Below the pieces are notes generated by a model. That model made no database searches. It saw nothing but the letters and a program-made list of their open reading frames with translations, and had not been told where the DNA came from. Positions 8,859-29,791 of a DNA stretch of 32,330 nt are shown here, one piece after another; positions within the stretch are counted from its first letter, which is position 1; every line of letters starts with the position of its first letter. A program made the translations under genes and the position numbers. This DNA comes from Acidiphilium iwatense (GTDB lineage: Bacteria; Pseudomonadota; Alphaproteobacteria; Acetobacterales; Acetobacteraceae), in NCBI RefSeq assembly GCF_021556475.1, contig NZ_JAKGBZ010000039.1, positions 1-32,330 on the forward strand, read 5' to 3'.

Positions 8859-8867
8859 CAGCGAAAT

Positions 8868-8881
8868 AGAATGAATTTTCC
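8868..8881. promoter_or_regulatory. IolR-like operator, regulator-proximal
   Basis: AGAA-TGAATT-TTCC, one mismatch from the palindrome GGAA-N6-TTCC that I recall being reported for Sinorhizobium IolR. It lies just upstream of the preferred RpiR start (8858), fitting autoregulation. An almost identical 14-mer lies 44 bp further toward iolD. Confidence 0.6.
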
Positions 8882-8911
8882 AGAAATGGTCAAGGGGTTG
8901 CATCTCGATTC

Positions 8912-8925: not shown

Positions 8926-8998
8926 ACTATTGCATAATATTCGAATTTGATGTTTCATATTGCCGAACCGAAAACCAGATCGGGGGGACGGAAACGCG

Positions 8999-13278: not shown

Positions 13279-13280
13279 AG

Positions 13281-14348: not shown

Positions 14349-15125
14349 ATGTCGCTCAATGCCATCTGGTCCGAGGGACGCGCTGCGCTGAACGGCTGGT
14401 TGTCCATCCCCGATGGTTTCGCCTCCGAGGTGATGGCGCACCAGGGCTGGGACACGCTGACCATCGACATGCAGCACGGCATCGTTGACTACGCCTATGC
14501 GGTGCGGATGCTGACAGCGATTTCGACCACGCAGGTCGTGCCGATCGTGCGCGTGCCGTGGCTCGACCCCGGTATCGTGATGAAGGTTCTGGATGCCGGC
14601 GTGCTCGGCGTGATCTGCCCGATGATCAATTCCGCCGAGGACGCCGAGATTTTCACGAGCGCCCTGCGCTACGCGCCGCGCGGGCGACGCAGTTTCGGCC
14701 CGATCCGCGCGAACCTTGCCCATGGCGCCGATTACCCGAAACGCGCCGACGATCTCGTCACCGGCTTTGCGATGATCGAAACCCGAGCGGCCCTCGATGC
14801 GCTGGATGCAATTCTCGCGGTGCCGGAACTGGATGCGATCTATATCGGGCCGGCAGATCTCGCGCTGTCGCTCGGCGCCGAGCCGCGATTCGATCCGGTT
14901 GATCCGGTGGTAACCGGACCGATCGAGCACATCCTCGCGCGTGCCAAGCATCACGGCAAGCGGGCCGGCATCCATACCGGCTCGGCTTCCTATGCCCGCG
15001 CCATGGTTGAAAAAGGCTTCGATTTCGTCACCATCGGGTCGGACGCACGGTTCATGGCGGCGGGCGCCGCGCGCGCCGTGGCCGATTTCCGTAATGTCGG
15101 CAACGACGTGAAGATCGCTTATTGA
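14349..15125 (+). CDS. HpcH/HpaI-family aldolase
   Basis: Class II (metal-dependent) pyruvate-type aldolase of the phosphoenolpyruvate/pyruvate TIM-barrel superfamily, 258 residues, cleaving 2-keto-3-deoxy or 4-hydroxy-2-oxo acids to pyruvate and an aldehyde. Visible features are TLTIDMQHGIVDY with His43 (the expected catalytic base), VRVPWLDPGIVMKVLDAGVL, GFAMIETRAALD (metal-ligand Glu) and IYIGPADLALSLG (metal-ligand Asp). GAGGAG precedes the ATG. The classic inositol route ends with a different aldolase (IolJ), so this one suggests either a substitute or a parallel route for a keto-deoxy acid, possibly made by the IlvD/Edd dehydratase at 28064-29791 (inference). Confidence 0.87.
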   Translation: MSLNAIWSEGRAALNGWLSIPDGFASEVMAHQGWDTLTIDMQHGIVDYAYAVRMLTAISTTQVVPIVRVPWLDPGIVMKVLDAGVLGVICPMINSAEDAEIFTSALRYAPRGRRSFGPIRANLAHGADYPKRADDLVTGFAMIETRAALDALDAILAVPELDAIYIGPADLALSLGAEPRFDPVDPVVTGPIEHILARAKHHGKRAGIHTGSASYARAMVEKGFDFVTIGSDARFMAAGAARAVADFRNVGNDVKIAY

Positions 15126-15126
15126 G

Positions 15127-16161
15127 ATGGTGGACATGCTGAATTTCGCCCTGATCGGTGCGGGACGCATCGGCGTTTCCCATGCATCGCTGATCGCAAA
15201 CCATCCGCGCGCGCGGCTCGCCGCGGTGATCGACGCGGATGCGAAAGCCGCCGCGTCGCTCGCGTCCCGCTTCAGCGCCGCGACGATGAACTGGGCCGAG
15301 GCGCTCGCCGACCCGGCGATCGATGCCATGCTGATCGCGAGTTCCACCGACACCCATGCGGGTTTCATCGAAGACGCGGCGCGCGCCGGCAAGGCGATCC
15401 TTTCCGAAAAACCGATCGATCTGTCGCTCGACCGCATCGATCGTTGCGGCGCGGTGGTGACGGAAACCAAGGCGCGCCTGATGGTGGGATTCAACCGCCG
15501 GTTCGATCCGCATATCGCTTCTCTCAAGGCGCGGCTCGATGACGAAGCGATTGGCCGGGCCAGCCAGATCCTGATTATCAACCGCGATGCCGGAGCGCCG
15601 CCGCCGGAATTTCTCCGCCGTTCCGGTGGTATTTTCCGCGACATGGCGATCCATGACTACGATCTTGCCTGCCATCTGTTCGGCGCGGCCCCGGTTGCGG
15701 TTCATGCCCAGGGCAGCGCCCTGGTTGATCCCGGTGCCGCGTCCTGCGGCGATTACGACACGGCGCTGACCGTGCTGACCATGGCGGACGGCGCGCAGGC
15801 GATGATCGCGAATGCACGATGTGCGCGATTCGGCTTCGATTTCCGCCTCGAAGTGCTTGGCGCGAAAGGCGTGTTGCGGCTCGACAATCCGCGCGAGACC
15901 ACGCTGATCGAGGCGGATGCGGCAGGCGTACGACAGGCGAAACCGCCGCAGAATTTTTTCGCTCGGTTCGAGACCGCTTTTGCCCGCCAGCTCGACGCCT
16001 TCATCGACGCAATCATCGCGGGGCACTCACCGCCATCCGACTTCGCCGATGGCCGGACCGCGTCCGCGATCGCCGAAGCGGCGGCCAAATCCGCCACAAC
16101 TGGAACGCCAATTTTACTTGACAGAAAAGATGGATTGATTATTCTAAAATTACAAAAATAA
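15127..16161 (+). CDS. iolG: Inositol 2-dehydrogenase-like protein, copy 1
   Basis: NAD-dependent Gfo/Idh/MocA dehydrogenase that oxidises myo-inositol (or an isomer) to the inosose used by IolE. ALIGAGRIG is the nucleotide loop, Glu94-Lys95-Pro96 (SEKPIDL) is intact, and GGIFRDMAIHDYD carries Asp172 and His176 of the catalytic triad; VGFNRRFDP is typical of IolG. It starts one base after the aldolase stop; the ATG at 15136 is an alternative. The last 40 bp of the gene contain the promoter for the transport genes. A second IolG at 27066-28067 shares the same motifs, so the copies probably differ in inositol isomer. Confidence 0.88.
   Translation: MVDMLNFALIGAGRIGVSHASLIANHPRARLAAVIDADAKAAASLASRFSAATMNWAEALADPAIDAMLIASSTDTHAGFIEDAARAGKAILSEKPIDLSLDRIDRCGAVVTETKARLMVGFNRRFDPHIASLKARLDDEAIGRASQILIINRDAGAPPPEFLRRSGGIFRDMAIHDYDLACHLFGAAPVAVHAQGSALVDPGAASCGDYDTALTVLTMADGAQAMIANARCARFGFDFRLEVLGAKGVLRLDNPRETTLIEADAAGVRQAKPPQNFFARFETAFARQLDAFIDAIIAGHSPPSDFADGRTASAIAEAAAKSATTGTPILLDRKDGLIILKLQK
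16118..16145 (+). promoter_or_regulatory. Strong sigma-70-type promoter for the transporter operon
   Basis: A perfect TTGACA (16118-16123) is followed after 16 bp by TATTCT (16140-16145). It sits inside the 3' end of iolG copy 1, ahead of an operator (16162-16175), with transcription expected to begin near 16152 and the first ABC gene starting at 16262. The operator would overlap the early transcribed region, suited to repression. Confidence 0.65.
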
Positions 16162-16175: not shown

Positions 16176-16261
16176 GAATGAGCTCCATCACGGATGCTCG
16201 TACGAGAGGGAACGTTGCCGATGGAAAACGCTAAATCGCCGGGATGCGAGGACCGCCGGAC

Positions 16262-17389
16262 ATGAGGGCGCCTGATATGGCGACTGCTCCGGGGAAGAAG
16301 CCGGTGCATGACGAGCGTCTGACCGACATCTCTTGGCTGCACCGCGCGATGCGCCGGCCCGAGCTTGGCGCGGTCGGCGGCCTGATCGTGGTGATTTTGT
16401 TTTTCGCGGCGACCGCGAGTGCCACCATGTTCAGTGTCGCCGGCATCATGACGGTGCTGCGGCCCGCCGCCGAACTCGGCATCATGTCCGTCACCGCCGC
16501 ACTTCTGATGATCGGCGGCGAGTTCGATCTTTCGATCGGCTCGATGGTCGCCTTCGCCGGGCTGATCTTCGGCGTTCTATTGGTCAACCTACATTTGCCG
16601 ATGATCCTCGCCGTGCTCGGAACCCTGATCATGGCGGGGCTGTTCGGCGCGCTCAACGGGCAATTGGTGATTCGCACCAAGCTGCCCTCCTTCATCGTTA
16701 CGCTGGCCTTTTTGTTCATCCTGCGCGGCTTGTCGCTGGTCGGACTCAAGCTCGCGACCGGCGGCAATACGATCCTCTCCGGCGTCGCGCCGGCGGGCAA
16801 GCCCGGCTTCGCCGATCACCTATTCTCCGGGGATACACTGACCGGATTGTTTTCCTGGCTGACGGCGCACGGCATGATCGCGACCCTGCCGAACGGCAAG
16901 CCTTCGGTGCATGGCGTGCCGATTTCGGTCGTCTGGTTCGTCACGATCACCGCGCTCGCTACCTGGGTTCTGCTGCGCACCCGCTTCGGCAACTGGATTT
17001 TCGCATCAGGCGGCGATGCCAATGCCGCGCGCAACTCCGGCGTTCCGGTCAACCGCGTGAAGACGATTCTGTTCGTCTGTACCGCGCTGTCCGCGGCACT
17101 AGTCGCGATCATCACCTCGCTCGATACCGCCTCGACCGATGCGCTGCGCGGTCTGCAGATGGAGTTCGAGGCGATCATCGCGGCGGTGATCGGCGGCTGC
17201 CTGCTGACCGGCGGCTACGGTTCGGCAATCGGCGCGTTTTTCGGCGCATTGATCTTCGGCACGGTCGAAATCGGCCTCACCTACACGAATTTCGACAGCG
17301 ACTGGTTTCAGGTTTTCCTTGGCGCGATGCTGCTGATCGCGGTGATGTTCAATAACGCGGTGCGCCGGCGCGTGACCGGGGAACGCTGA
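16262..17389 (+). CDS. Sugar/inositol ABC transporter permease
   Basis: Integral inner-membrane permease of the ribose/inositol (RbsC/FrcC) family. About eight to ten hydrophobic segments are visible, beginning with [20 protein letters not shown]. Typical landmarks are [30 protein letters not shown], and [18 protein letters not shown] in the cytoplasmic coupling loop. The ATG at 16262 is preferred to 16244, since GAGGA lies nine bases upstream. It is first of permease-ATPase-binding protein, with 2 bp to the ATPase gene. The substrate is inferred as an inositol or a methylated inositol from the surrounding genes. Confidence 0.9.
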
Positions 17390-17391
17390 CC

Positions 17392-18174
17392 ATGAGCGAC
17401 CTCCCCCTCATCGAAGTCCGTGACCTGCGCAAGCAGTTCGGCCATGTCATCGCCCTCGCCGGCGTCTCGCTTCGTGTCCATGCAGGCGAGGTACTCTGCC
17501 TGCTCGGCGATAACGGCGCCGGAAAATCAACTCTGATCAAGACGCTGTCCGGGGTGCATAAACCCACCGAGGGCGAATTTCTGGCCGAGGGCAAATCGGT
17601 CGCGTTCGCCAGCCCGCGTGATGCGCTCGATGCAGGAATCGCGACGGTCTATCAGGATCTCGCGATGATCCCGCTGATGTCGATCACGCGCAATTTTTTC
17701 ATGGGGCGCGAGCCGGCGAAAGGCGTCTGGCCATTCAAACGGGTCGATTTCCGAAGCTGTGACGACATCGTCCACGACGAAATGCGCCGGATCGGCATAG
17801 ATGTGCGCGACCCGACCCAGGCGGTCGGCACGCTCTCGGGTGGCGAACGGCAATGCGTGGCGATCGCGCGGGCGGTTTATTTTGGCGCCAAAGTTTTGAT
17901 TCTCGACGAACCGACCTCGGCCCTCGGTGTCGCGCAGACCTCGATGGTGCTGAAATACATCAATCAGGTGCGCGCCAAAGGGCTTGGGGTGATCTTCATC
18001 ACCCATAATGTGCGCCACGCCTATGCGGTGGGCGATCGGTTCACCGTGCTCAATCGCGGGCGGACGATCGCGGACGCCGCGAAACGGGAGATCGGCATCG
18101 ACGAGCTGCAGACCCTGATGGCCGGCGGCAAGGAGTTGCAGGAGGTTTCGGCCGAGCTGGCCGGAATGGTCTGA
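17392..18174 (+). CDS. ABC transporter ATPase, single nucleotide-binding domain
   Basis: Cytoplasmic ATPase for the adjoining permease. Walker A is GDNGAGKST (39-47), the signature is LSGGERQ (148-154), Walker B is VLILDEP (168-174), and the H-loop is IFITHNV. At 260 residues it has a single nucleotide-binding domain, unlike the duplicated two-domain RbsA type; single-domain versions occur in FrcA-like fructose/polyol systems and would act as a homodimer. Spacing is 2 bp after the permease gene and 47 bp before the binding-protein gene. Confidence 0.92.
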
Positions 18175-18221
18175 GGAACAGTTATTCAATCACGCGTTCA
18201 TCACATGGGGAGGAAATGGTT

Positions 18222-19178
18222 ATGACAAAGCGTTTGAGAGCCCTGCTCGCGGGGCTTGCCGGTGCGGCGGTCGTCGTATTCGGGCACGGTGCCGCGCAGG
18301 CGGCGCCGAAGAAGCTCGTGATCGAAATGGTCACCCATGGCGAGGCGGTCGATCCGTTCTGGACCCGGATCAAGAACGGCGCCGATCTGGCCGCGCGGCA
18401 GATGAATGTCGATCTGCGCTATCGCGCCCCGAATACGTTCAACATGGTCAAGATGAAGGATTTGATCCAGGCGGCGGTTAACCAGCATCCCGCCGGGCTG
18501 ATCGTGACGATCCCGGACGCAGCGGCACTCGGCCCCCCGATCAAGGGCGCGGTGGATGACGGAATTCCGGTGATCACGATGAATACCGGCCGCGTTCCCG
18601 GCAAGAAGCTCGGCACGCTCGCCTATGTCGGCGAGGGCAATTACGCCGGCGGCGTCGAGGCCGGCAAGCGTTTCGCCAAGCTCGGCGCGACGCTAGGCGT
18701 CTGCCTCAATCAGGAGGTCGGGCAGATCGCGCTGGAGCGGCGATGCCAGGGCTTCGCGAAGGGGTTCGGCCACAAGGTGATCACCCTGCCGACCAGCGAA
18801 GACCCGACAACGGTGGTCTCCCAGATCGAGGCGTTTCTGCGGACGCACCCTGGCGCCAACGCGATCCTGGCGAACAGCGCGCCGCTTGGCGGCGAGCCGG
18901 CGGTGAAGGCGGTCGAGGCGCTTGGGCTCAAGACCAAGATCTTCATCGGCTCGTTCGATCTCTCGCCGGGTTTCCTGCAGGCGCTCGCGCAGAAGAAGGC
19001 CGATTTCGCGCTCGATCAGCAGCCCTTCCTGCAAGGCTATCTCTCGGTCGTGCTGATGGCGAATTACGCGCGCTATGGCGTCATTCCGTCTGAATACGAC
19101 ATCCCGACCGGGCCAAATTTCGTGACCCCCAAGAATGCCGCTCAGGTGATCGCCCTGTCCAAGAAAGGCATCAGGTGA
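18222..19178 (+). CDS. Periplasmic sugar/inositol-binding protein
   Basis: Type I periplasmic binding protein (RbsB/IbpA/MocB-like) that delivers substrate to the ABC transporter. A Sec signal peptide covers residues 1-28 (basic MTKRLRALL, hydrophobic core, GAAQA-AP cleavage). The mature domain has MVTHGEAVDPFWTRIKNGAD, then AYVGEGNYAGGVEAGKRF and DFALDQQPFLQGYL. The ATG at 18222 is chosen because GGGGAGGA lies seven bases upstream; 18216 would be too close. Its stop overlaps the next gene's GTG by 4 bp. Confidence 0.9.
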   Translation: MTKRLRALLAGLAGAAVVVFGHGAAQAAPKKLVIEMVTHGEAVDPFWTRIKNGADLAARQMNVDLRYRAPNTFNMVKMKDLIQAAVNQHPAGLIVTIPDAAALGPPIKGAVDDGIPVITMNTGRVPGKKLGTLAYVGEGNYAGGVEAGKRFAKLGATLGVCLNQEVGQIALERRCQGFAKGFGHKVITLPTSEDPTTVVSQIEAFLRTHPGANAILANSAPLGGEPAVKAVEALGLKTKIFIGSFDLSPGFLQALAQKKADFALDQQPFLQGYLSVVLMANYARYGVIPSEYDIPTGPNFVTPKNAAQVIALSKKGIR

Positions 19179-19981
19179 CGAAGCGGACGCTCGGCGTCTG
19201 TAGCTGGATTTTCGGAGGGTTAGGAGCCGGAGCGATCGTCAAGGCGGTCGCTCCTCTCGGCTACCGGGGGATCGAGCTGCATCCGGCACTTCTCGAAGCC
19301 AGGGACACGGCATCGATCCTTGCCGATCATGGGTTCGACATCGTCTCGATCACGCCGCCGGATGCGGATATCGCCCATCCCGATCCGGCGATTCGCGAAC
19401 CGGCGATCGTCACGCTCTATCGGATGATCGACCGGGCGACGGAACTCGGTGCGCCGCGCGCGGCGGTGCATGGGCTGGTCGGGCGCATCCGCCCGGTCAC
19501 GACCCAGGCGGAGGAGGACGATCTGCTCGACGACGCGGTGGCCCGGCTTGCCGACCATGCCGCCGCCTGTGGGATCGCCCTGGTTTTCGAGGTGCTGAAC
19601 CGCTACGAATCGCACCAGATCAATACCGCCGAACAGGGGTTGGCGACGCTCGCCCGGCTCGGCCGGCCGAATCTGAAACTGCTGCTCGACGCGTATCACA
19701 TGAATATCGAGGAACCCGATCCGGCGGCGGCACTCCGCGCGGCCGGCGCTTCACTCGGGCTCTATCATGCCGCCGATTCCAATCGCCGCGCGCCGGGGCG
19801 CGGCCATATCGATTTTGCGGCGCAACGGGCGGCATTGGATGCGATCTCCTATGCCGGGCCGGTGGTTATCGAGATCACCGCACCCGGCCCGGATCCGTTC
19901 ACGCCAAAGAAGTCCGGCGATTTTCGCGCGATATTGCTCGACGATCTCGCGGCGGCGATCAGAACACTCGGCGCGAGGTGA
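19175..19981 (+). CDS. TIM-barrel sugar/inosose isomerase or epimerase
   Basis: AP-endonuclease-2/xylose-isomerase-like TIM barrel, 268 residues, of the D-tagatose 3-epimerase/IolI/MocC group. Metal-site motifs include FEVLNRYESHQINT, LLLDAYHMNIEEPD, YHAADSNRRAPGRGHIDF and VVIEITAPG. The family interconverts ketoses or inososes, so a role in funnelling an inosose isomer toward IolE is likely, though a ketose epimerase is equally possible. It begins with GTG, which overlaps the binding-protein stop (GTGA), and is the last gene of the transport transcript. A small hairpin, CTCCG-CTTA-CGGAG (19998-20011), follows the stop. Confidence 0.85.
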   Translation: MTKRTLGVCSWIFGGLGAGAIVKAVAPLGYRGIELHPALLEARDTASILADHGFDIVSITPPDADIAHPDPAIREPAIVTLYRMIDRATELGAPRAAVHGLVGRIRPVTTQAEEDDLLDDAVARLADHAAACGIALVFEVLNRYESHQINTAEQGLATLARLGRPNLKLLLDAYHMNIEEPDPAAALRAAGASLGLYHAADSNRRAPGRGHIDFAAQRAALDAISYAGPVVIEITAPGPDPFTPKKSGDFRAILLDDLAAAIRTLGAR

Positions 19982-20067
19982 GGGTTTTCCATCAAATCTC
20001 CGCTTACGGAGGCGGGTTCGCACCGGTATTCTGAGGCTACTCCATAAGCCAGGAAAGCAGTGCGACG

Positions 20068-21141
20068 ATGACGCCAGCGACGACAACGATGACGAGGGAC
20101 CGGCCACATCGGCGCGACTACGGCCTCACCGGCGCCGACGCCCGCCGCGCCGAAGCGACCGGACTCGCCAATGCGAAGTGGTTTTCGGCAAATGTGCCGC
20201 GCGCCGCGCTGAAATCGATGATGCAGCGGCGTAACGGACCCGCGCTGCGCGACACCGCGATCTGGTTGGCGGCGCTCGCCGCCTCCGGCGGCCTCGCCGC
20301 ATGGTTTTGGGGCAGCGCCTGGAGCATTCCGTTTTTCGGCGTCTACGGCGTGCTTTACGGCTCGGCGTCCGATTCGCGCTGGCACGAATGCGGCCACGGC
20401 ACCGCTTTTCGCACACGCCGGCTGAACGACATCGTCTACAACATCGCCTCCTTCATGATCCTGCGCGAGCCGACGGTCTGGCGCTGGAGCCATGCACGCC
20501 ACCATACAGATACCATCATCGTCGGGCGTGACCCGGAAATCCTCGCGCCGCGCCCGCCCGATCTTCTCGGCATCACGCTCAATCTGTTCGCGCTGAAAGC
20601 CGGTCCGAAGGCGATCGCCCATATCCTGCTGCACGCAACCGGCTGTCTGACCGCCGACGAAAAAAGCTTCATCCCCGCGACGGAGCAGCCGAAGGTAATC
20701 CGCACCGCACGCATCTGGCTCGGTCTGTTCGGCGCGGTGATCGCGCTCGCGCTCGCGACGCGCAGTTTTCTGCCCTTGATGCTCGTCGGGCTGCCGACCT
20801 TCTACGGCGCCTGGCTGCAACTGATCTTCGGCGTCACCCAACATTCGGGACTTGCGGAAGACGTGCTGGATCACCGGCTCAATAGTCGGACGATCCACAT
20901 GAATCCGGTGTTCCGCTTCATCTACTGGAACATGAACTACCACGTCGAACACCACATGTTTCCGCTGGTGCCGTATCACGCGCTGCCGCAACTGCACGCG
21001 GCGATCGGCGCGGAATGTCCGCCGCCCTATCCGGGCCTGCTCGCCGCCTATCGGGAAATCGTCCCCGCGCTGATCCGCCAGCGCCGCGATCCCACCTGGC
21101 ATATCAAGCGCCGGTTGCCCCAGCGCGCGGTGGAAGCGTGA
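20068..21141 (+). CDS. Membrane di-iron oxygenase/desaturase, MocD-like
   Basis: Membrane fatty-acid-desaturase superfamily enzyme, 357 residues. Histidine boxes are HECGH (106-110), HARHH (142-146) and HVEHH (292-296), with an extra His259 in TQHSG; they ligate two irons. Hydrophobic segments flank residues 64-100, 214-230 and 234-258. Followed directly by a Rieske ferredoxin and a ferredoxin reductase, it forms the same trio as rhizobial mocD-mocE-mocF, which act on the rhizopine 3-O-methyl-scyllo-inosamine. An O-demethylase or hydroxylase role on methylated inositols is inferred. A lipid desaturase is the alternative, but the location within an iol island argues against it. Confidence 0.82.
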   Translation: MTPATTTMTRDRPHRRDYGLTGADARRAEATGLANAKWFSANVPRAALKSMMQRRNGPALRDTAIWLAALAASGGLAAWFWGSAWSIPFFGVYGVLYGSASDSRWHECGHGTAFRTRRLNDIVYNIASFMILREPTVWRWSHARHHTDTIIVGRDPEILAPRPPDLLGITLNLFALKAGPKAIAHILLHATGCLTADEKSFIPATEQPKVIRTARIWLGLFGAVIALALATRSFLPLMLVGLPTFYGAWLQLIFGVTQHSGLAEDVLDHRLNSRTIHMNPVFRFIYWNMNYHVEHHMFPLVPYHALPQLHAAIGAECPPPYPGLLAAYREIVPALIRQRRDPTWHIKRRLPQRAVEA

Positions 21142-21167
21142 CGATGATTTCCAAGGAAAATGACACC

Positions 21168-21482
21168 ATGACGCAATGGATCGATGTCTGCGCTGCGGAC
21201 GCGCTGGAACCGGACGACGTGATCCGCTTCGATCACGAAGGGCAAACCTTCGCGGTCTATCGCACGTCGGATGACGCGTATTGCGCGACCGACGGACTTT
21301 GCACGCACGAGCAGGTGCATCTCGCCGACGGCTATCTCGAGGGCAGGATCATCGAATGCCCGAAGCATAACGGGCGGTTCGATATCATGACCGGAGCGGC
21401 GAAAGGCGCGCCCGCCTGCATCGATCTGGCGACCTATCCGGTGAAGGTCGCCGATGAGCGCGTGCTCATTGGCCTCGGCTGA
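21168..21482 (+). CDS. Rieske [2Fe-2S] ferredoxin, MocE-like
   Basis: Small electron carrier of 104 residues. The Rieske ligands are Cys45 and His47 (CTHEQVH) and Cys64 and His67 (CPKHNGRF). Length and sequence match MocE-type ferredoxins, which shuttle electrons from a flavoprotein reductase to a membrane oxygenase. The start at 21168 follows AAGGA; an in-frame ATG at 21144 would add eight residues. Upstream of that the frame only mirrors the preceding gene. It is separated by 26 bp from the oxygenase gene and 6 bp from the reductase gene. Confidence 0.92.
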   Translation: MTQWIDVCAADALEPDDVIRFDHEGQTFAVYRTSDDAYCATDGLCTHEQVHLADGYLEGRIIECPKHNGRFDIMTGAAKGAPACIDLATYPVKVADERVLIGLG

Positions 21483-21488
21483 GCCATC

Positions 21489-22715
21489 ATGTCCATACGC
21501 CGCATCGTCATCATCGGCGCGGGTGCGACAGGTACTGCCGCCACCCGTGCGCTCCGCGCCTCGGGGTTCGACGGCGCGCTCGCGCTGATCGACGGCGAAG
21601 GCGAAACGCCCTACGAGCGCCCTGCCCTGTCGAAATCGGTGCTGACCGATGCCGCCGATCCGCCCGTGCTGCTCGACGCTGCGACGATCGCGCGCGAGGC
21701 GATCGATCTTGTCTCGGGCATTCCGGCCGCCGCGATCGACCGGGCGGCGCGGTGCGTGACGCTCGCGAACGGCCCTGCAATCTCCTACGATCGCCTGCTG
21801 ATCGCGACCGGCGCCACCCCGCGCCGCCTCACCCTACCGGGGGCCGAGCGCGTATACTATTTGCGCAATCTTGCGGATGCGCGAGCGATCCGCACCCGGC
21901 TCGTGCCTGGCGCTGCGATCGCCATCGTGGGCGGCGGGCTGATCGGGCTGGAGCTCGCGGCAAGCGCGCGCAGGCTCGGCTGCGCGGTGACCGTGATCGA
22001 GGCTGCGCCGCGCATCCTGGGCCGCGCCGTGCCTGCGCGCCTTGCCGCCGCGATCGAGGCGCGACACCGCGCTTCGGGCGTCGCTTTCCACACCTCGGCG
22101 ACGATAGCCTCGATCGACGGCGCCGGGCTTCGCCTGGATAACGATGCATGGATCGGTGCGGATGCCGTCATCGCCGGGATCGGCGTGGTGCCCGAAACGG
22201 CGCTCGCGGGCGCGGCCGGTCTTGCGCTCGATAACGGAATCGCGGTCGATGCGGCGTTCGCGACCTCAGATTCCGCGATCTTTGCCGCCGGCGATTGCTG
22301 CGCGCTCCCGCACAGGCTGTTCGGCACGGCGAGGCTGCGTTTCGAATCCTGGCGGGTTGCCGGCGATACCGGCGCGTGCGTGGCGGCAACTCTGCTGGGT
22401 GTCGCACGGCCGTTCGACGCCGTGCCCTGGTTCTGGTCCGACCAGTATGACGAAACCCTGCAGATCGCCGGAATGCCGCAATTCGGCGCCCGTATCGTCG
22501 AACGCGCCACCGGAACCGCCGCGCCGATGCTGTTCCATCTCGCCGCGGACGGTCGCCTCGTCGCCGCCGCCGCGTTCGGACCGGCCGGCGCGATCGGGCG
22601 CGACATCCGCATCGCCGAGCGGCTGATCGCGGCATGTGCGCATCCCGCGCCCGAGGATCTCGCCGATCCGTCGCGCCCGCTGAAGGTGCTGCTCCGCGGC
22701 ACCGTGGCGGCTTGA
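21489..22715 (+). CDS. FAD/NAD ferredoxin reductase, MocF-like
   Basis: Flavoprotein of 408 residues that passes electrons from NADH to the neighbouring ferredoxin. The FAD-binding loop is IIGAGATGTAATRAL (8-22), the NAD loop is IVGGGLIGLELAASA (146-160), ATGATPRRLTLPG is the linker motif, and IFAAGDCCALPH (264-275) is the second FAD contact. The architecture is that of rubredoxin/ferredoxin reductases of oxygenase systems. It completes the MocDEF-like set. Confidence 0.92.
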   Translation: MSIRRIVIIGAGATGTAATRALRASGFDGALALIDGEGETPYERPALSKSVLTDAADPPVLLDAATIAREAIDLVSGIPAAAIDRAARCVTLANGPAISYDRLLIATGATPRRLTLPGAERVYYLRNLADARAIRTRLVPGAAIAIVGGGLIGLELAASARRLGCAVTVIEAAPRILGRAVPARLAAAIEARHRASGVAFHTSATIASIDGAGLRLDNDAWIGADAVIAGIGVVPETALAGAAGLALDNGIAVDAAFATSDSAIFAAGDCCALPHRLFGTARLRFESWRVAGDTGACVAATLLGVARPFDAVPWFWSDQYDETLQIAGMPQFGARIVERATGTAAPMLFHLAADGRLVAAAAFGPAGAIGRDIRIAERLIAACAHPAPEDLADPSRPLKVLLRGTVAA

Positions 22716-22768
22716 GTGCGGGGGTCTCCGGGATCATATTTCCCCGGCACCGGAACAGGGAGGTCAGA

Positions 22769-23272
22769 ATGCCGGCACAGGAAATCTTCCCGCTCGAGGG
22801 CGGCTGCGACTGCCGCACCGTCCGCTATCGCATGGAAATCCGCCCGCTTTTCGTTCATTGCTGTCACTGCCGCTGGTGCCAGCGCGAGACCGGCACGGCC
22901 TTCGCGCTCAATGCGATGATCGAGTCCGAGCATGTCACGACGCTCGCGGCCGAGCCGGTCGTGATCGATACGCCGTCGGCAAGCGGAATCGGCCAGAGAA
23001 TCGCCCGCTGCCCGAACTGTCATGTCGCGGTCTGGAGCAATTACGGCGGTGCGGGAGACAAAATGCGGTTCGTGCGGGTCGGCACGCTCGATGCGCCGGA
23101 TCATCTGCCGCCCGATATTCATATTTTCACCACATCGAAGCAGCCCTGGGTCGTGATTCCGCCGGGGGCGGCGGTGGTTCCCGAATATTACGATCGCGAA
23201 GAACACTGGCCGGCCGAGAGTCTGGCACGGCGGCGCGTTCCGCTGGAGAAGTCCGGCGCCGGGCGGACATGA
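22769..23272 (+). CDS. GFA-family zinc protein linked to the O-demethylase genes
   Basis: A 167-residue glutathione-dependent formaldehyde-activating/CENP-V fold protein. Zinc ligands are seen as Cys13 and Cys15 (GGCDCR), Cys31-Cys37 (CCHCRWC) and Cys81, Cys84 (CPNC). AGGGAGGT lies just before the ATG at 22769; longer starts add unrelated arginine-rich sequence. It lies 53 bp after the reductase gene in the same direction. Oxidative O-demethylation releases formaldehyde, so a GFA protein directly behind a MocDEF-like set is a plausible detoxification partner. The catalytic claim for GFA proteins is disputed, so the role is inferred from context. Confidence 0.85.
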   Translation: MPAQEIFPLEGGCDCRTVRYRMEIRPLFVHCCHCRWCQRETGTAFALNAMIESEHVTTLAAEPVVIDTPSASGIGQRIARCPNCHVAVWSNYGGAGDKMRFVRVGTLDAPDHLPPDIHIFTTSKQPWVVIPPGAAVVPEYYDREEHWPAESLARRRVPLEKSGAGRT

Positions 23273-23302
23273 TCGCCGAAGCCAGTTCGGCGCTCCGGGA
23301 TC

Positions 23303-24310
23303 GTGCGTAGCCGCGCGAAACTGGAGGATGTCGCGCGCCGCGCCGGGTGCGGCCTCGCGACCGTGGACCGGGTGCTCAATGAGCGCGGCGGCGTTTCGCC
23401 GGCGACCGCGCAGCGCGTGCTGAAGGCCGCGCGCGCACTCGGCCTCCGCCGCATCCTGCCCGCGCCCTGGCACCGGCAAATCAGGATCGACATTCTGCTG
23501 ACCCGTTCGGCAACTCCCTATATCGGACGGCTCAACGCCGCCTTCGTGGCGATCGCCGGCACGCTTGACCGCTCGGTCACGCTGCAGCGCAGCGCGCTCG
23601 ATCCCCAGCCCACGCCCGCCGCGCGGCGGATGGCGGAAAGTTCCGCCGATGCCGTCGCGGTCTATGTCGTCGATCATCATTCGGTGCGCGAGGCGGTCGA
23701 TCGCCTCGCCCTGCGCGGCGTGCCCGTCATCTGTCTCACCACCGATCTGCCCGGAACCGCACGCGCCGCCTATGTCGGGATCGACCATGGCAAGGCAGGG
23801 CGCACGGCAGCGTTCCTCGCCGCACGGGTGCAGCTCGCGCGCGAGCCCGGCGCTGCCCTGGTCATCACCACCAGCCTCGCCTTCCGCGCCCATGTCGAAC
23901 GGGTTGACGGATTCGCCGAGGGACTCGCCCGCCATGCGCCGGACGCGCGCATCGCCGAGGTGCTGGAGGCGATGGACGATCCCGATCGCGCCTATGCCGC
24001 GATCAGAACCGCGCTCGCGGCGCGGGACGATTGGGGCGCGCTCTACAATACCGGGGGAGCCAATCGAGCGGTCGCCGCCGCTATCGCCGATGCCGGATGG
24101 CGCGATCGCCTGATCTTCCTCGGTCACGAACTCACCGGAGAAACCGCATCGCTCCTTGCCTCCGGCGCGATGCTCGCGACGATCGATCAGGCGCCCGAAC
24201 TCCAGGCCCGCCGCGCAACCGATATCCTGCTCCGCCGTCTCGGTCTCGCCGAAGGCGAGGTGCCGACGGGCGAAATTCCCTTCACCCTGCACACGCCTGA
24301 AAATATCTAA
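23303..24310 (+). CDS. LacI-family transcriptional regulator
   Basis: The N-terminal LacI HTH (residues 7-26, LEDVARRAGCGLATVDRVLN) carries the hinge sequence that follows and is joined to a periplasmic-binding-protein-like effector domain. The start is GTG with no earlier candidate. It ends the mocDEF-GFA direction group and may sense the methylated inositol or a sugar. Its TAA stop overlaps the TAG stop of the convergent iolB gene by two bases (CTAA). Confidence 0.9.
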   Translation: MRSRAKLEDVARRAGCGLATVDRVLNERGGVSPATAQRVLKAARALGLRRILPAPWHRQIRIDILLTRSATPYIGRLNAAFVAIAGTLDRSVTLQRSALDPQPTPAARRMAESSADAVAVYVVDHHSVREAVDRLALRGVPVICLTTDLPGTARAAYVGIDHGKAGRTAAFLAARVQLAREPGAALVITTSLAFRAHVERVDGFAEGLARHAPDARIAEVLEAMDDPDRAYAAIRTALAARDDWGALYNTGGANRAVAAAIADAGWRDRLIFLGHELTGETASLLASGAMLATIDQAPELQARRATDILLRRLGLAEGEVPTGEIPFTLHTPENI

Positions 24311-25104
24311 AAATTTTCGGTTGCGGCTGCGTGATCGGTATCGACGCGCACCCGCCATAACCGGCGCGGACCGGCCATGACGTTGAGATAATAGAGATCG
24401 CATCCCGGTGCGGCGGAAACCGGATGATAGCCGCGCGGCACCAGCACCGCGCAGCCATCGTCGAGCGGGAGGGCGGCATCGAGCGATCGGTCCTTTGTAT
24501 AGACGCGCTGGACGCCGAAACCGGACGGACGCGCGAAACGATGGTAATAGACCTCCTCCAGCGCGGTTTCGTGCGGCCAATCATCGGTATCATGCTTGTG
24601 CGGCGGGAAGGACGACCAGTGGCCGCCGGGTGTTATCACCTCGACGACCAGCAACGATGCCGCCGGTTCGGTCTCGGGCAGGATGTCGCGGATCAGCCTT
24701 GCGGTGCTGCCCGCGCCGCGCGTGGACACCTGCCATGATCGCGGCCCGATGATCCGGGGCGGGATTTTGCCCCGTTCATCCGCCGCGAGGCAAAGTGCTA
24801 ACTCGCAGTCCGTCTCGGCGCGGAACCGGAAGCGGTTGCGCGCGGGAATGTAGGCGGCGTGGCCTGCCGCCGTGAAGGGATTTTTCCGTCCGCCGATCGC
24901 GGTCCGGGTCAGGCCCTCGGCTTCGAGACGGCCCTGGCCGGATAACAGGACGAGGCAGGTTTCGCGCACGTCGTCGATCCGCGCGAGTTCGGCGCCGGGC
25001 GCTAACTGGAACACCTCCATTGCGCAGTGTCGCAACGCATCCCTGGTCGCCAGCACGCGGCCTTCCGGGTCTGGCGACGGATTCGCTCGGATCAGCAGGG
25101 TCAC
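24307..25104 (-). CDS. iolB: 5-Deoxy-glucuronate isomerase
   Basis: Cupin-fold isomerase that converts 5-deoxy-D-glucuronate to 5-dehydro-2-deoxy-D-gluconate. Bicupin of 265 residues; metal ligands lie in SSFPPHKHDTDDWPHE (about residues 165-180) and EEVYYHRF. The GTG at 25104 is chosen because it overlaps the iolC stop by 4 bp (GTGA) and GGGGAGGA lies seven bases upstream; the longer ATG at 25134 would overlap iolC by 34 bp. It is second gene of the leftward iolC-iolB operon. Confidence 0.93.
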   Translation of the reverse strand: MTLLIRANPSPDPEGRVLATRDALRHCAMEVFQLAPGAELARIDDVRETCLVLLSGQGRLEAEGLTRTAIGGRKNPFTAAGHAAYIPARNRFRFRAETDCELALCLAADERGKIPPRIIGPRSWQVSTRGAGSTARLIRDILPETEPAASLLVVEVITPGGHWSSFPPHKHDTDDWPHETALEEVYYHRFARPSGFGVQRVYTKDRSLDAALPLDDGCAVLVPRGYHPVSAAPGCDLYYLNVMAGPRRLWRVRVDTDHAAATENF

Positions 25105-26987
25105 GATACCAATCCTCCCCGGTTCCGCCACCATAGCGAAACCATCGCACGGAACCGCTCGATCATCATATCCCGTGCCGCCGCTTCGTCGATCGCGCCG
25201 GAGCAGAATCGCTCCGCCGCCTCCTGCCAGATCGCCCGACCGATCGCGAAGCCGGCGACGATCGGTGCCGCCGCCGCCGTCGCGATGCCGTTCGCGAGGT
25301 CGTCATCCCCCGCGTCCCGCCCGAGCACCAGAACGCCGCGGCAATCCGGGTCGTTGTGCCGGATCACCGCCTCGATTCGCCGCCAGGAAGCCGCGCTCTG
25401 CATCTCCAGTTTCCACCAATCGGGGTGCAAGCCGAGCGCATAGAGATGCGCAAGCGTGTCAGCGAGGGTCGCTTCACCGACCGGCCCGAAGGGCGACGCG
25501 ACCAGTTCGATCAGCAACGCGCGGCCGAGCCGCCGAGCCGCCTCGCCGGTTTGCACCAGCGCCACATCCTGGGCGGCGCGCAGTTCGGGCGGGTCGTCCG
25601 GGTGGTAGAGTGCCAGGCACTTCACCACATGCGTCTCGGGCCACGCGATCAGGGCGGAACCGAGATCGCGCCCGGCCTCGAAGGCGAGCGGCCGGCTGCC
25701 CGGCCGTTCGACTGGCACGCCGATCCAGAGCGGCGCGGGCCGGGCGGTGAGCGAGTCGAGCGCCGCCGCACCATAATCCCGATCAAGCAGAACGCCGAAC
25801 CCGCATTCCGGCCGCGTATCGGTCGCGGCAAGATCGCGCATCGCGGCGCATCCCGTCGATTTGAACGTGGCGATCGCCCGTGCGTCCCGCCCATGGTGCG
25901 TGGCAAGTGCCGCGAATTGCGCGCGATGATCGAGCGCGAGCGCGAGAATCGTCGCCGGCGCATTGCGCGCGGCGGTCGCGCGCGGAGGATTGGCGCTCGC
26001 CGGCGCACCCGCAAGGAACGCCGCAAGCTCTTGGGTCGTGGGGCTTGCCGCAGAGCAGAGCAGCCGCGCCGCGACGATCGCCCCGCACGCATTACCGTGC
26101 CGCGCGCAATCCTCCGGTGCGGCGCCCTCTAGATAGCGCGCGATGAACCCGGCCATAAACGCATCCCCCGCGCCGAGCGGGTTGCACAGCGCCACGGAAA
26201 ATCCGGGTACCACGCCGCCCGCATCCAACCGTGCGGGAATCGCCGCGCGAAGCACCACCGAACCCCGCGATCCGCGCTTGACCACGAACACGGCGCCCGA
26301 CCGTGCGCGCAGCGACAGTAGCGCGTCGATCGTGCTCCCGGCGTTGCCGGCGATCCGCCACTCTTCCTCGGTACCGACGACGACATCCGCCGCTTCGATC
26401 AGCGCGGTCAGACGGGATGCGACCGCCGCCGCGCCGCCGGGGGTGCCGAACGACGGCCGGTGGTCGATATCGAGCACCACCGATCGCGCCGCATCGCGCG
26501 CGGCGGTGATCGCCACGTCCACCGCATCCGCGCCGATGCCCGAGGCCGCATGGGCGCCGCTGACCACCAGGGCGCGGGCCGAGACGATCAGCGCGGTGTC
26601 GATCTCGGCCGGCTCGGTTACCGCGTCAGCGGCGTTCTCGCGGAAAAACACCAGATCGGGCGCGCCTCCGGGCGCCGCGCTGGCGAAGGCGAGCGCGGTG
26701 CACCGTGCCGCATCCTGGCGCAGTCCGCGCGTCGCGACATTTTCCGCTTCCAGGGTCGCTTTGACATAGGCACCGAAAGAGTCGGCTCCGGTCGCGGTGA
26801 CGATGGCCGCGCGCAGCCCCAACCGTGCGCAGCCGATCGCGATATTGCCCGCGCAGCCACCCACCGCGCGGGCGAAACTGCTCGCCTGATCGAGACGCAC
26901 GCCGCTTTGCTGGGCATAGAGATCGACGCAGATCCGGCCGAGCGTGACGACATCGAATTTCGGCTCCGGCGCGACGATCACCACCAC
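25101..26987 (-). CDS. iolC: 5-Dehydro-2-deoxygluconokinase fused to DUF2090 domain
   Basis: Bifunctional-looking 628-residue protein. Residues 10-320 are a PfkB/ribokinase-type kinase (IolC) with GGCAGNIAIGCARLG and the catalytic NPLGAGDAFMAGF (Asp275); it phosphorylates 5-dehydro-2-deoxygluconate. Residues about 340-628 are a DUF2090 domain, a predicted class I aldolase-like TIM barrel, with ALDHRAQFAAL near its start. This fusion is known from alpha- and other proteobacterial IolC proteins and probably supplies the IolJ aldolase step that would otherwise be missing. It starts at GTG 26987 (others nearby are in frame) and overlaps iolB by 4 bp. Confidence 0.93.
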   Translation of the reverse strand: MVVIVAPEPKFDVVTLGRICVDLYAQQSGVRLDQASSFARAVGGCAGNIAIGCARLGLRAAIVTATGADSFGAYVKATLEAENVATRGLRQDAARCTALAFASAAPGGAPDLVFFRENAADAVTEPAEIDTALIVSARALVVSGAHAASGIGADAVDVAITAARDAARSVVLDIDHRPSFGTPGGAAAVASRLTALIEAADVVVGTEEEWRIAGNAGSTIDALLSLRARSGAVFVVKRGSRGSVVLRAAIPARLDAGGVVPGFSVALCNPLGAGDAFMAGFIARYLEGAAPEDCARHGNACGAIVAARLLCSAASPTTQELAAFLAGAPASANPPRATAARNAPATILALALDHRAQFAALATHHGRDARAIATFKSTGCAAMRDLAATDTRPECGFGVLLDRDYGAAALDSLTARPAPLWIGVPVERPGSRPLAFEAGRDLGSALIAWPETHVVKCLALYHPDDPPELRAAQDVALVQTGEAARRLGRALLIELVASPFGPVGEATLADTLAHLYALGLHPDWWKLEMQSAASWRRIEAVIRHNDPDCRGVLVLGRDAGDDDLANGIATAAAAPIVAGFAIGRAIWQEAAERFCSGAIDEAAARDMMIERFRAMVSLWWRNRGGLVS

Positions 26988-27065: not shown

Positions 27066-28067
27066 ATGTCCATGACCCAGCTCAATATCGCCTTGATCGG
27101 CGCCGGCCGGATCGGCCGCGTCCATGCCGCCTCGATCGCGGCGCACCCGGATTGCCGCCTCGCCACCGTCAGCGACGCGATCGAGGACGCGGCCCGGTCG
27201 CTCGCCGCCGAAACCGGCGCGGCCGTGACTCCCGCCGAGGCCGCGATCGGCGATCCCGCGACCGACGCAGTCATGATCTGCGCGCCCACCGATGTCCATG
27301 CCGCGCTGATCGAAACCGCCGCGCGCGCCGGCAAGCCGGTGTTCTGCGAAAAGCCAGTCGATCTCGATGCCGCTCGCATCCGCGCCTGCCTCGCCGTGGT
27401 TCGCAGCACCGGCATTCCCCTCATGATTGGCTTCAACCGCCGATTCGACCCAAGTTTCCGCGACCTCAAGCGCCGCCTGGACGCCGGCCGCATCGGCAGC
27501 ATAGAACTGGTGTCGATCCTATCGAAAGACCCAGCGCCGCCGCCGGTTTCGTATATCGAGCGTTCTGGGGGGCTGTTCCGCGACATGATGATCCATGATC
27601 TCGACATGGCGCGCTTCCTGCTCGGCGAGGAGCTGATCGCGGTTCATGCCGCCGGTAGCGCCCTGGTCGATCCGGCGATCGGCGCGGCGGGCGATGTCGA
27701 TACCGCCGTCGTCACGCTGAGGACAGGGTCTGGCAAGCTGGTCTCGATCACCAATTCACGGCGCGCGACCTATGGCTACGATCAGCGGATCGAGGTTCAT
27801 GGCAGTGGAGGGATGCTCGCCGCCGGCAACCGCACCCAGACCACCGTGACCGAAGCGGGCGCGTCCGGGTATATCACCGATCCCGCTTTGCCGTTTTTCC
27901 TGGAACGCTACGCGGACGCATATCGGGCCGAACTCGACGCCTTCGTCGCCGCGATCAAGGGCGGCACGATGCCGGAACCGGATGGCGAGGATGGGCTCGC
28001 GGCGCAGATTCTCGCCGACGCCGCGACCGAATCGGCGAAAACCGGCCAGACGGTGCATCTTCAATGA
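27066..28067 (+). CDS. iolG: Inositol 2-dehydrogenase-like protein, copy 2
   Basis: Gfo/Idh/MocA NAD-dependent dehydrogenase, 333 residues, with ALIGAGRIG, the intact EKP motif (CEKPVDL, 95-97), IGFNRRFDP, and GGLFRDMMIHDLD with Asp173 and His177. An alternative ATG at 27072 has GGAGA upstream. Its stop overlaps the dehydratase start by 4 bp (ATGA). Being next to iolC and the best operator site, it may be the main myo-inositol enzyme, with the other copy acting on scyllo-, D-chiro- or methyl-inositol; that split is inference. Confidence 0.9.
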   Translation: MSMTQLNIALIGAGRIGRVHAASIAAHPDCRLATVSDAIEDAARSLAAETGAAVTPAEAAIGDPATDAVMICAPTDVHAALIETAARAGKPVFCEKPVDLDAARIRACLAVVRSTGIPLMIGFNRRFDPSFRDLKRRLDAGRIGSIELVSILSKDPAPPPVSYIERSGGLFRDMMIHDLDMARFLLGEELIAVHAAGSALVDPAIGAAGDVDTAVVTLRTGSGKLVSITNSRRATYGYDQRIEVHGSGGMLAAGNRTQTTVTEAGASGYITDPALPFFLERYADAYRAELDAFVAAIKGGTMPEPDGEDGLAAQILADAATESAKTGQTVHLQ

Positions 28068-29791
28068 GCGCCAAACGCGATCCCGCCGCGCTGCGCAGCC
28101 ACCGCTGGTTCGGTGCGGCCGATCTGCGCAGTTTCGGCCACCGCTCGCGGATCAGGCAGCTCGGTTTCGACCTCGCGGATGTCGCGGGGCGCCCGGTGAT
28201 CGCGATCGTCAATACCTGGAACGGGCTTGCCCATTGCCATGGCCATTTTCCGGCGCGGGTGGAGGCGATCAGGCGCGGCGTGCTGGAGGCCGGCGGGTTT
28301 CCTGTCGAAATCCCGGTGATGGCGCTGCCGGAAAATTTCGTGAAGCCGACCACCATGCTCTATCGCAACCTGCTCGCCATGGAGGTCGAGGAAAACCTTC
28401 GCTCGCTGCCGGTGGACGGCGCGGTGCTGATGGGCGGTTGCGACAAGACCACGCCGGCGACTATCATGGGGGCGATCAGCGCCGGGCTGCCGGCGATTTT
28501 CATGCCGGCCGGCCCGATGCTGCGTGGCAACTGGGGCGGCAAAATCCTTGGCTCCGGCTCAGATGTCTGGAAATACTGGGACGAGAAACGCGCCGGCAAC
28601 ATCTCCGACGCACAATGGGCGGACATGGAATCCGGCATCGCGCGGTCCGACGGCGTGTGCATGACCCTGGGCACCGCGATGACCATGACCTCGCTGGCCG
28701 AGGTGCTGGGCCTGACGCTGCCGGGCGCGACGTCAATCCCCGCACCCGATTCCGGCCATGCCCGCATGGCGACGGCGACCGGGCGGCGTGCGGTCGATCT
28801 GGTCTGGGAGGGTTTGCGGCCTTCCGATATCCTTACCGCCGCAAGTTTCGACAACGCGATCATCGCGAGTGCCGCGCTCGCCGGTTCGACCAACGCGATC
28901 ATCCATCTGATCGCGATGGCGCGCCGGGCGGGAATCCCGCTCTGGCTCGATCGGTTCGACGAACTCTCATCGGGCGTGAAGGTGCTCGCCGATATCCGCC
29001 CTTCCGGCGCCTATCTGATGGAGGATTTCTTCTATGCCGGCGGATTGCCCGCCTTCCTGACCCGCATCGCGCACCGGCTCGATCTTTCGACCCGGACCGT
29101 CAACGGCAGAACGCTTGGCGATAACATCGCAGAGGCGAAAGTCTGGAACGAGGAGGTGATCCGCCCGGAACAAAATCCGGTCTCTTTCGCCGAGGGGCTG
29201 GCGGTGCTGCGCGGTAATCTCGCACCCGACGGCTGCGTGATGAAACCGTCCGCCGCGGAGCCGCGTTTGCTCAAGCACGAAGGTCCGGTGCTGGTTTTTG
29301 ACGATTACGACGCGATGGCGCGTGCCGTCGCCGATCCCGATCTCGACGTCACGCCGGATCATGTTCTGGTGCTACGCAATGCCGGGCCGCTCGGCGGGCC
29401 TGGAATGCCCGAATGGGGCATGCTGCCGATTCCGGTGAAGCTGCTGCGCCAAGGGGTGCGCGATATGGTGCGCATCTCGGATGCGCGGATGAGCGGCACC
29501 AGCTACGGCGCCTGCATTCTGCATGTCGCGCCGGAAGCCTTTATCGGCGGCCCGCTCGCGCTGATCCGCACCGGCGATGTCATCGCCGTCGATGTCGCCG
29601 CGCGCCGCATCGCCGTGCAACTGACGGACGACGAACTTTTGCTCCGCCGCGCCGCCTGGACGCCGCCGCCGCCGCGTTATCCGCGCGGCTATGGCGCCAT
29701 GGCGGCTGCTCATATCGGTCAGGCCAACACCGGCTGCGATTTCGACTTTCTGCAGCGCGACGGGGCCATCCTCGAACCCGAAATCCATTGA
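28064..29791 (+). CDS. IlvD/Edd-family sugar-acid dehydratase
   Basis: Iron-sulfur dehydratase, 575 residues, close in length to L-arabinonate-type dehydratases. Cluster/active-site cysteines are visible as Cys58 (AHCHGHF), Cys126 (MGGCDKTTPA) and Cys199 (GVCMTLGTA), consistent with a [2Fe-2S] enzyme; SDARMSGTSYG is the C-terminal signature serine region. It should turn an aldonate into a 2-keto-3-deoxy acid. This reaction is not part of the standard inositol path. Coupled by ATGA to iolG copy 2, it suggests a parallel aldonate branch with the HpcH/HpaI aldolase at 14349-15125 (inference). Valine/isoleucine biosynthesis (IlvD) is less likely in this context. Confidence 0.88.
   Translation: MSAKRDPAALRSHRWFGAADLRSFGHRSRIRQLGFDLADVAGRPVIAIVNTWNGLAHCHGHFPARVEAIRRGVLEAGGFPVEIPVMALPENFVKPTTMLYRNLLAMEVEENLRSLPVDGAVLMGGCDKTTPATIMGAISAGLPAIFMPAGPMLRGNWGGKILGSGSDVWKYWDEKRAGNISDAQWADMESGIARSDGVCMTLGTAMTMTSLAEVLGLTLPGATSIPAPDSGHARMATATGRRAVDLVWEGLRPSDILTAASFDNAIIASAALAGSTNAIIHLIAMARRAGIPLWLDRFDELSSGVKVLADIRPSGAYLMEDFFYAGGLPAFLTRIAHRLDLSTRTVNGRTLGDNIAEAKVWNEEVIRPEQNPVSFAEGLAVLRGNLAPDGCVMKPSAAEPRLLKHEGPVLVFDDYDAMARAVADPDLDVTPDHVLVLRNAGPLGGPGMPEWGMLPIPVKLLRQGVRDMVRISDARMSGTSYGACILHVAPEAFIGGPLALIRTGDVIAVDVAARRIAVQLTDDELLLRRAAWTPPPPRYPRGYGAMAAAHIGQANTGCDFDFLQRDGAILEPEIH

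Follow-up and report, generated by a model that had tools for sequence, protein, structure and literature searches.

We analysed a stretch of 32,330 nucleotides from Acidiphilium iwatense (contig NZ_JAKGBZ010000039.1), called the window below, which carries homologs of the rhizobial genes mocD, mocE and mocF. An earlier note on this DNA had claimed the order mocD-mocE-mocF. We found the three genes in that order at 20068-22715, each encoding a protein of the fitting family, and they are followed on the same strand by two further genes and preceded by a candidate regulatory site:

20068..21141, + strand: mocD-like membrane di-iron oxygenase (PF00487 FA_desaturase, 119.5 bits, cut-off 29.7)
21168..21482, + strand: mocE-like Rieske ferredoxin (104 amino acids, Rieske motif; TIGR02377, 147.1 against a cut-off of 136.15)
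21489..22715, + strand: mocF-like FAD/NAD ferredoxin reductase (Pyr_redox_2 and Reductase_C)
22769..23272, + strand: CENP-V/GFA-family protein (PF04828, 93.8 bits; solved relative 8ajq)
23303..24310, + strand: LacI-family regulator, likely for mocDEF (PF00356 and PF13407)
19978..19995, no strand assigned: putative LacI operator GTGAGGGTTTTCCATCAA upstream of mocD, with 13 bases in common with TTGATGGAAAACCATCAA

The oxygenase contains the three His boxes that had been ascribed to it, namely HECGH (residue 106), HARHH (142) and HVEHH (292). For mocE the start at 21168 was preferred over the other start choices, and for the GFA-family gene the start at 22769 was preferred over 22634. The MocE model TIGR02377 was matched above its cut-off in 11 of the 385 genomes of the class that were searched. 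An AlphaFold2 model of MocD had a mean pLDDT of 79.8. When it was compared with the PDB by Foldseek, no structure was found at E ≤0.001, the best being 8xqw_M (E 3.8e-3, TM 0.56), and a sequence-profile search for a solved MocD relative gave none that was credible.

MocDEF is an enzyme type already known from root-nodule bacteria, where it acts on an inositol amine in the rhizopine model. In that model, put forward by Bahar et al. in 1998, MocDEF reportedly demethylates the inositol amine and the inositol pathway then follows, so that the earlier statement that the combination in the window matches no known pathway was too strong. The rhizobial genes for rhizopine catabolism, mocCABRDEF, are attributed to Bahar et al. 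1998 and Rossbach et al. 1994 as cited in PMC10107442. Our yardstick for such clusters was a locus on plasmid pPR13E04 of Rhizobium indicum (L197), which we class as putatively rhizopine-type because of its MocR and its gene content. Compared with L197, the window proteins showed identities of 57.6% (MocD), 60.6% (MocE) and 46.8% (MocF).

The surroundings of mocDEF had been described as inositol (iol) genes. This was borne out, with iolD, iolE, iolA and an iolG-like gene upstream and iolB, iolC and iolG downstream:

8022..8903, - strand: RpiR-family regulator, divergent to the iol run and 56 bp from iolD (HexR/MurR/RpiR models matched below cut-off)
8960..10843, + strand: iolD, trihydroxycyclohexane-dione hydrolase (TIGR04377, 943.1 against 715)
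10847..11788, + strand: iolE, inosose dehydratase (TIGR04379, 388.8 against 290)
11785..13278, + strand: iolA/mmsA, CoA-acylating semialdehyde dehydrogenase (TIGR01722, 715.2 against 448.5)
13281..14327, + strand: Gfo/Idh/MocA oxidoreductase (best NCBIfam model iolG, 80.9, cut-off 355; best solved relative PmdC, 9azo)
14349..15125, + strand: HpaI/GarL-type aldolase (HpaI 160.1, GarL 137.9, neither reaching its cut-off)
15127..16161, + strand: iolG-like inositol dehydrogenase (TIGR04380, 345.2, cut-off 355; best solved relative inositol 2-dehydrogenase, 4hkt)
16244..17389, + strand: sugar ABC transporter permease (65-68% to permeases of the rhizobial loci L168/L169)
17392..18174, + strand: sugar ABC transporter ATPase (75-77% to its counterparts in L168/L169)
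18216..19178, + strand: substrate-binding protein (SBP), inositol type (rhzpin_SBP NF052284, 288.7, below the cut-off of 420)
19175..19981, + strand: ketose 3-epimerase/IolO-type TIM barrel, putative inosose isomerase (IolO 129.4, below 300)
24307..25134, - strand: iolB (TIGR04378, 267.4 against 205)
25101..26987, - strand: iolC kinase fused to a DUF2090 domain (TIGR04382, 286.6, cut-off 300; fused model NF047869, 494, cut-off 600; DUF2090, 289)
27066..28067, + strand: iolG, inositol 2-dehydrogenase (TIGR04380, 430.9 against 355)
28064..29791, + strand: IlvD/Edd-type sugar-acid dehydratase (NF009559 L-arabinonate dehydratase, 955.5 against 882)

IolA, B, C, D, E and G are thus all encoded in the island, and NCBIfam cut-offs were reached by all but IolC; the additional iolG-like gene at 15127 also stayed below. 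The IolD match at 8960 is the sole one above cut-off in the whole genome. On the + strand the genes from 8960 to 24310 form one run in which adjacent genes are separated by at most 86 bp. The SBP showed 53.7% identity to an SBP adjoining iol genes in Paracoccus. The best solved relatives of the TIM barrel at 19175 were ketose 3-epimerases, with IolI a weak match.

From gene identity, gene order, family membership and recurrent neighbourhoods we infer a substrate, its demethylation, its regulation and a role for the isomerase. As judged from sequence, MocDEF of the window probably demethylates methylated inositols and feeds the product into inositol breakdown, a reading that we hold with moderate confidence. 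Electrons would pass from NADH to the flavoprotein MocF, on to the Rieske ferredoxin MocE and then to the membrane di-iron oxygenase MocD. MocD would hydroxylate an O-methylated inositol, for example pinitol or ononitol, at its methyl group, and the resulting hemiacetal would split into free inositol and formaldehyde. The ABC transporter would import the cyclitol. Chiro- and myo-type inososes may be converted into each other by the epimerase-type TIM barrel, and the ring would be broken down by IolA, B, C (including the domain fused to it), D, E and G. The LacI protein encoded at the end of the unit would sense the cyclitol and control mocDEF via the site just upstream of mocD.

Methylated inositols are widespread in plants, and pinitol and ononitol are reported to accumulate in Lotus nodules (PMC8730688). 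In Rhizobium mesoamericanum mocDEF and iol genes were reported to be up in Mimosa root exudate, of which pinitol was the most concentrated compound (PMC5789663). Pinitol or ononitol is our best guess for the substrate because of the iol set, the epimerase-type protein and this rise of mocDEF and iol genes in a pinitol-rich exudate. The proposed reaction resembles the P450 demethylation of 6-O-methyl-D-galactose described in marine Flavobacteriia (PMC10033563), which is likewise an oxidative O-demethylation of a carbohydrate that releases formaldehyde. However, a P450 with redox partners acts there and a membrane di-iron enzyme would act here, and the proteins are unrelated.

We compared gene order around MocD by searching genome contigs with a MocD alignment; the 80 named loci analysed were the best of 551 confirmed. 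The counts given here use strict identity limits, which were fixed after a loose count, and a one-carbon (C1) gene means PanB-like, PurU or FolD. Among these 80 closest relatives, 37 loci had an iol gene in the flank, 37 had a C1 gene and 58 had one or the other; the counts are not independent samples, as some loci overlap (for example L006/L099, L043/L172 and L083/L174). After thinning at 90% identity 41 loci were left, of which 14 had an iol gene, 16 a C1 gene and 24 either. Genes iolB, C, D or E were found in the flank of five of the 80 (L039, L071, L093, L108 and L117). For the 20 distant desaturase-family control loci from the window's own family, the Acetobacteraceae, iol genes were present in 0/20 and folD in 2/20. 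Several loci and controls had less than 10 kb of flank.

Single loci illustrate how closely the two gene sets can be joined. In a Rhizobiaceae metagenome-assembled genome (MAG), L093, mocDEF is bordered by iolG (417/355) and LacI at one end and by iolE at the other, and RpiR, iolC, iolD and iolB lie further out; this gene set is close to that of the window. In a MAG labelled Actinomycetota (L071) mocDEF runs directly into iolB (263.6/205), an IolE-like gene (156.5, below 290) and iolC (339/300), with iolD (816 against 715) further along. Locus L096 has on one strand mocDEF, PanB-like, purU, folD, LacI, a TIM barrel and iolG, and in many Mesorhizobium loci iolG (420 against 355 in L047) and an ABC transporter are divergent from mocDEF. 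The rhizobial LacI-mocDEF loci resemble the window in having LacI beside mocDEF, often with a TIM-barrel epimerase, iolG or an ABC transporter nearby. Many of them carry PanB-like, PurU or FolD and few carry the iol core, whereas the window lacks these C1 genes and combines the iol core with a GFA-family gene. Conversely, the myo-inositol genes of Paracoccus (L183) share iolG, C, D, E and B and a related transporter with the window, but mocDEF is not found there in the stretch covered.

The LacI protein of the window showed 50-54% identity to the LacI adjoining mocD in four other loci (L004, L041, L043 and L170). In two of these, both from Acidisoma (L041 and L043), the mocD promoter contains TTGATGGAAAACCATCAA, and 13 unbroken bases of this element are present in the window at 19983-19995, 72 bp upstream of mocD. 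This 13-base element has a single exact copy in the 4.16 Mb genome and seven more places with one mismatch, the motif having been chosen after the Acidisoma promoters and the window were viewed jointly. When the 18-base palindrome was sought with up to three mismatches we obtained 2 hits against 1.15 expected, which is not above chance. FixV-type LacI relatives (FixV/Msi360-type) are described beside mocDEF in rhizobia, and catabolism of inositol derivatives has been suggested there (PMC3538637).

Several observations weigh against the demethylation of methylated inositols. Under the loose limits, before the strict ones were set, the controls gave IolD matches in 3/20 (26-28%) and PanB matches in 2/20 (40%), all of which dropped out once the strict limits were applied. 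Moreover, the controls came from the window's family and most positives were rhizobial, so that different lineages were compared. Recurrence with iol and C1 genes was indeed seen, mainly in rhizobia, but it held up poorly within the window's own family: among 12 further MocD loci from seven of its genomes, an iol gene was present in one and a C1 gene in none. In a Lichenicoccus locus from this family in the named set (L039), iolC, iolG and an RpiR gene do lie close to mocDEF. In Acidiphilium multivorum the MocD match is on plasmid pACMV1 (NC_015178.1, 271,573 bases) at 132432-133445, and mocDEF is beside LacI, TIM-barrel and Gfo/Idh/MocA genes without iol; two further genomes of the genus gave no MocD match at E 1e-20. 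The mocDEF genes of Pseudomonas syringae adjoin a xylose isomerase gene, xylA2, as reported in PMC5132102. The rise of mocDEF in Mimosa exudate was only 1.53-2.11-fold, and its authors inferred rhizopine use (PMC5789663). Within the island the HpaI/GarL-type aldolase and the sugar-acid dehydratase are foreign to inositol breakdown, and the transporter resembles those of inositol loci that show no mocDEF in the stretch covered.

Some of these points would suit a different substrate. MocDEF could demethylate an O-methylated sugar or sugar acid, with the neighbouring Gfo/Idh dehydrogenases, the aldolase and the arabinonate-dehydratase-like enzyme as parts of a non-phosphorylative sugar pathway that has become joined to the iol island. 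The 28064 gene does exceed the cut-off for L-arabinonate dehydratase, and the aldolase at 14349 has a 48% counterpart in L005, where iolD, iolE and mocD are also present. The A. multivorum and P. syringae loci fit such a pathway as well, and in a MAG labelled Verrucomicrobia (L045) MocD is near genes of RhaT-type sugar transport and of the oligogalacturonate-lyase type. Because the island contains the aldolase and the arabinonate-type dehydratase, a methyl sugar stays open as a substrate. However, the island has a full iol set, largely in one same-strand run, iolG is close to mocDEF in many rhizobia, and mocDEF comes directly before iol genes in L071. We regard a methyl sugar as unlikely, although it is the alternative that survives best.

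The fate of the methyl group bears on the reaction itself. The GFA-family gene had been read as a formaldehyde-disposal gene. A gene of this family does follow mocF; its product, however, is not a Gfa equivalog, as it scored 19.8 on TIGR02820 against a cut-off of 234.55. A GFA match next to mocD was found in 0/101 other MocD loci, and the Gfa of Paracoccus is reported not to catalyse formation of S-hydroxymethylglutathione (PMC4682968). Disposal of formaldehyde by this gene is thus poorly supported, and we set the protein aside as a formaldehyde partner, given its low TIGR02820 score and lack of recurrence at MocD loci; what part it might have in the pathway is a guess. The cell probably deals with formaldehyde elsewhere. 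Outside the window, the host genome contains fragments of Gfa-type and class III alcohol-dehydrogenase-type genes (contigs C132, C156, C126, C134 and C101; L186-L190), those on C132, C156 and C101 stopping at contig ends, and given these fragments the genome may encode a glutathione route there. A second GFA-family gene lies in the window outside the island (7524-7916, - strand), and the solved CENP-V/GFA protein 8ajq is very similar to it by eye.

Other MocD loci have a different set of genes at this place. As summed from gene orders, the same-strand run starting with mocD contains a PanB-like gene in 35 of the 80 loci, purU in 7 and folD in 3. In many rhizobia the PanB-like gene comes after mocDEF, in some with purU and folD (L006, 11672-12487; L008, 11763-14376; L197, 11747-13483). 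The L006 PanB-like protein scored below the PanB cut-offs (132.1/272 and 105.2/207.55), and it aligns with solved PanB across residues 55-250. FolD and PurU together convert methylene-tetrahydrofolate to formate and tetrahydrofolate. The companion set therefore fits C1 release, and the PanB-like protein may load formaldehyde onto tetrahydrofolate. PanB-like, PurU and FolD genes are absent from the window; elsewhere in the host genome we found one PanB-type match at 36% and, for PurU, partial matches only (27% and 34%).

This companion set also bears on the possibility that MocDEF attacks a cyclitol at a ring or deoxy position by hydroxylation and leaves the methyl group in place. The FA_desaturase superfamily also includes enzymes that hydroxylate unactivated carbons, and among NCBIfam models MocD came closest to that of an arginine hydroxylase (32 bits, cut-off 380) and to those of desaturases. 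On the other hand, the PanB-like, PurU and FolD genes after mocDEF in many rhizobia, and the PanB-like gene and purU that continue from mocDEF in L197, are what would be expected if a C1 unit were released, although the window itself has none of them. Ring hydroxylation appears to us more unlikely still than a methyl-sugar substrate.

We then weighed the demethylation of methylated inositols against catabolism of rhizopine (3-O-methyl-scyllo-inosamine). The yardstick L197 encodes an IolE-type protein, two Gfo/Idh proteins, a binding protein, MocR (NF052281, 739 against 650), mocD, mocE, mocF, a PanB-like protein and PurU (330.6 against 285.95). An unannotated locus on pSymA of Sinorhizobium meliloti T073 (L199) matches 10 of 11 L197 query proteins at 72-88%. 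The window shares with rhizobial mocCABRDEF the mocD-mocE-mocF order, the protein families and, at 50%, a counterpart of the IolE-type protein. Both would use the inositol pathway downstream, which for rhizopine is cited in PMC5789663. All of this homology would be expected of a rhizopine cluster. However, neither the L197 MocR nor the binding protein adjoining it had a match in the window by tblastn at E 1e-8, in line with the claimed lack of a mocR-like regulator, and the window has a LacI gene instead. It further differs in having the iol set in the same island and no PanB-like or PurU gene, and its substrate is probably no inosamine; no aminotransferase was found among the 20 island genes scanned. 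Nor did any of the 85 other MocD loci compared (L004-L008 and L039-L118) have in its flank a match over 60% of the length of MocR; L199 alone gave one.

The SBP of the window stays below the cut-off of the rhizopine model NF052284, which is a weak test as the L197 binding protein beside MocR (6285-7214) scores 39.8 against the same cut-off of 420. What this model describes may be inositol transporters. The window SBP is 24% identical to another binding protein of L197. We dropped NF052284 as a rhizopine lead, since with this L197 score and a window transporter that matches plain inositol loci the model cannot separate rhizopine from inositol. A rhizopine biosensor has been tried against ononitol and pinitol and is reported to be activated by the inosamines (PMC6668481).

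Phylogeny placed the MocR-linked proteins apart from the window. Thinning at 90% identity reduced 108 rows (8 of them non-MocD) to 64. We discarded a first tree that included XylM of pWW0 and two further desaturase-family proteins from the host genome, because these rows had branch lengths of about 10 and an outgroup was placed inside the family. The second tree had 67 rows, with XylM, own_L001, own_L003 and out_L020 left out. In it 59 MocD rows (the window and 58 others) were apart from eight distant desaturase-family proteins, with support of 88/65 on the dividing branch; long branches were flagged, and the eight outgroup proteins lack an assigned function. The exact position of the window within the MocD family is not fixed by this tree. 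The two MocR-linked MocDs were inside the rhizobial group, away from the window, and that of S. meliloti was next to the LacI-linked copy on S. meliloti pSymB. With this placement added to the missing MocR and aminotransferase, a rhizopine cluster is very improbable, and both the MocDEF-plus-iol reading and the earlier preference for methylated inositols over rhizopine are supported by homology, the tree and the recurrent neighbourhoods. That MocD is a lipid desaturase present by chance, as its Pfam FA_desaturase match might suggest, is close to negligible given its scores on the NCBIfam lipid desaturases (DesB 30.4 and DesA 19.9 bits, both cut-offs 500), its own MocE ferredoxin and reductase, its separation in the tree and the neighbourhoods shared with iol and C1 genes.

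The nesting of the MocR-linked MocDs in a wider LacI-linked group suggests that rhizopine catabolism drew its enzyme from a broader MocDEF family, and because they sit inside that group methylated inositols are maybe the older substrate. MocDEF was found in Alphaproteobacteria and in records labelled Pseudomonas, Verrucomicrobia, Kiritimatiellales and Actinomycetota. A broader and more tentative proposal, which may well prove wrong, is that MocDEF started out as a general enzyme with which bacteria demethylate the methyl inositols of plants, that rhizopine use was a late specialisation, and that rhizobia would pass the formaldehyde to tetrahydrofolate via the PanB-like protein, FolD and PurU. 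A non-exhaustive literature search gave no named bacterial enzyme that demethylates methylated inositols. Our searches also found no description of a LacI-linked, iol-embedded mocDEF outside rhizobia, or of the PanB-like/PurU/FolD companions of mocDEF as a C1-disposal module. If MocDEF demethylates methylated inositols outside rhizopine users, genes annotated as fatty acid desaturase would join a testable pathway. Such a role would further account for the many mocDEF loci that lack MocR and for the PanB-like, PurU and FolD genes after mocDEF.

Some further arrangements were observed. MocD is also present in L046, a MAG labelled Kiritimatiellales. In L005 (7927-10086) and L053 (383-2494) mocD adjoins a second gene that is annotated as, or matches, the sterol desaturase family, and no mocF was found, which is possibly a related two-oxygenase system; L005 is the locus in which the HpaI/GarL-type aldolase recurs beside mocD, iolD and iolE. 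Near the end of the window a tRNA-Val (30862-30936) overlaps the end of an integrase-like open reading frame (30907-32016), which was named by reading and not by a family search. Because of this overlap the region may be mobile, with the tRNA-Val/integrase edge as a possible boundary of a mobile island.

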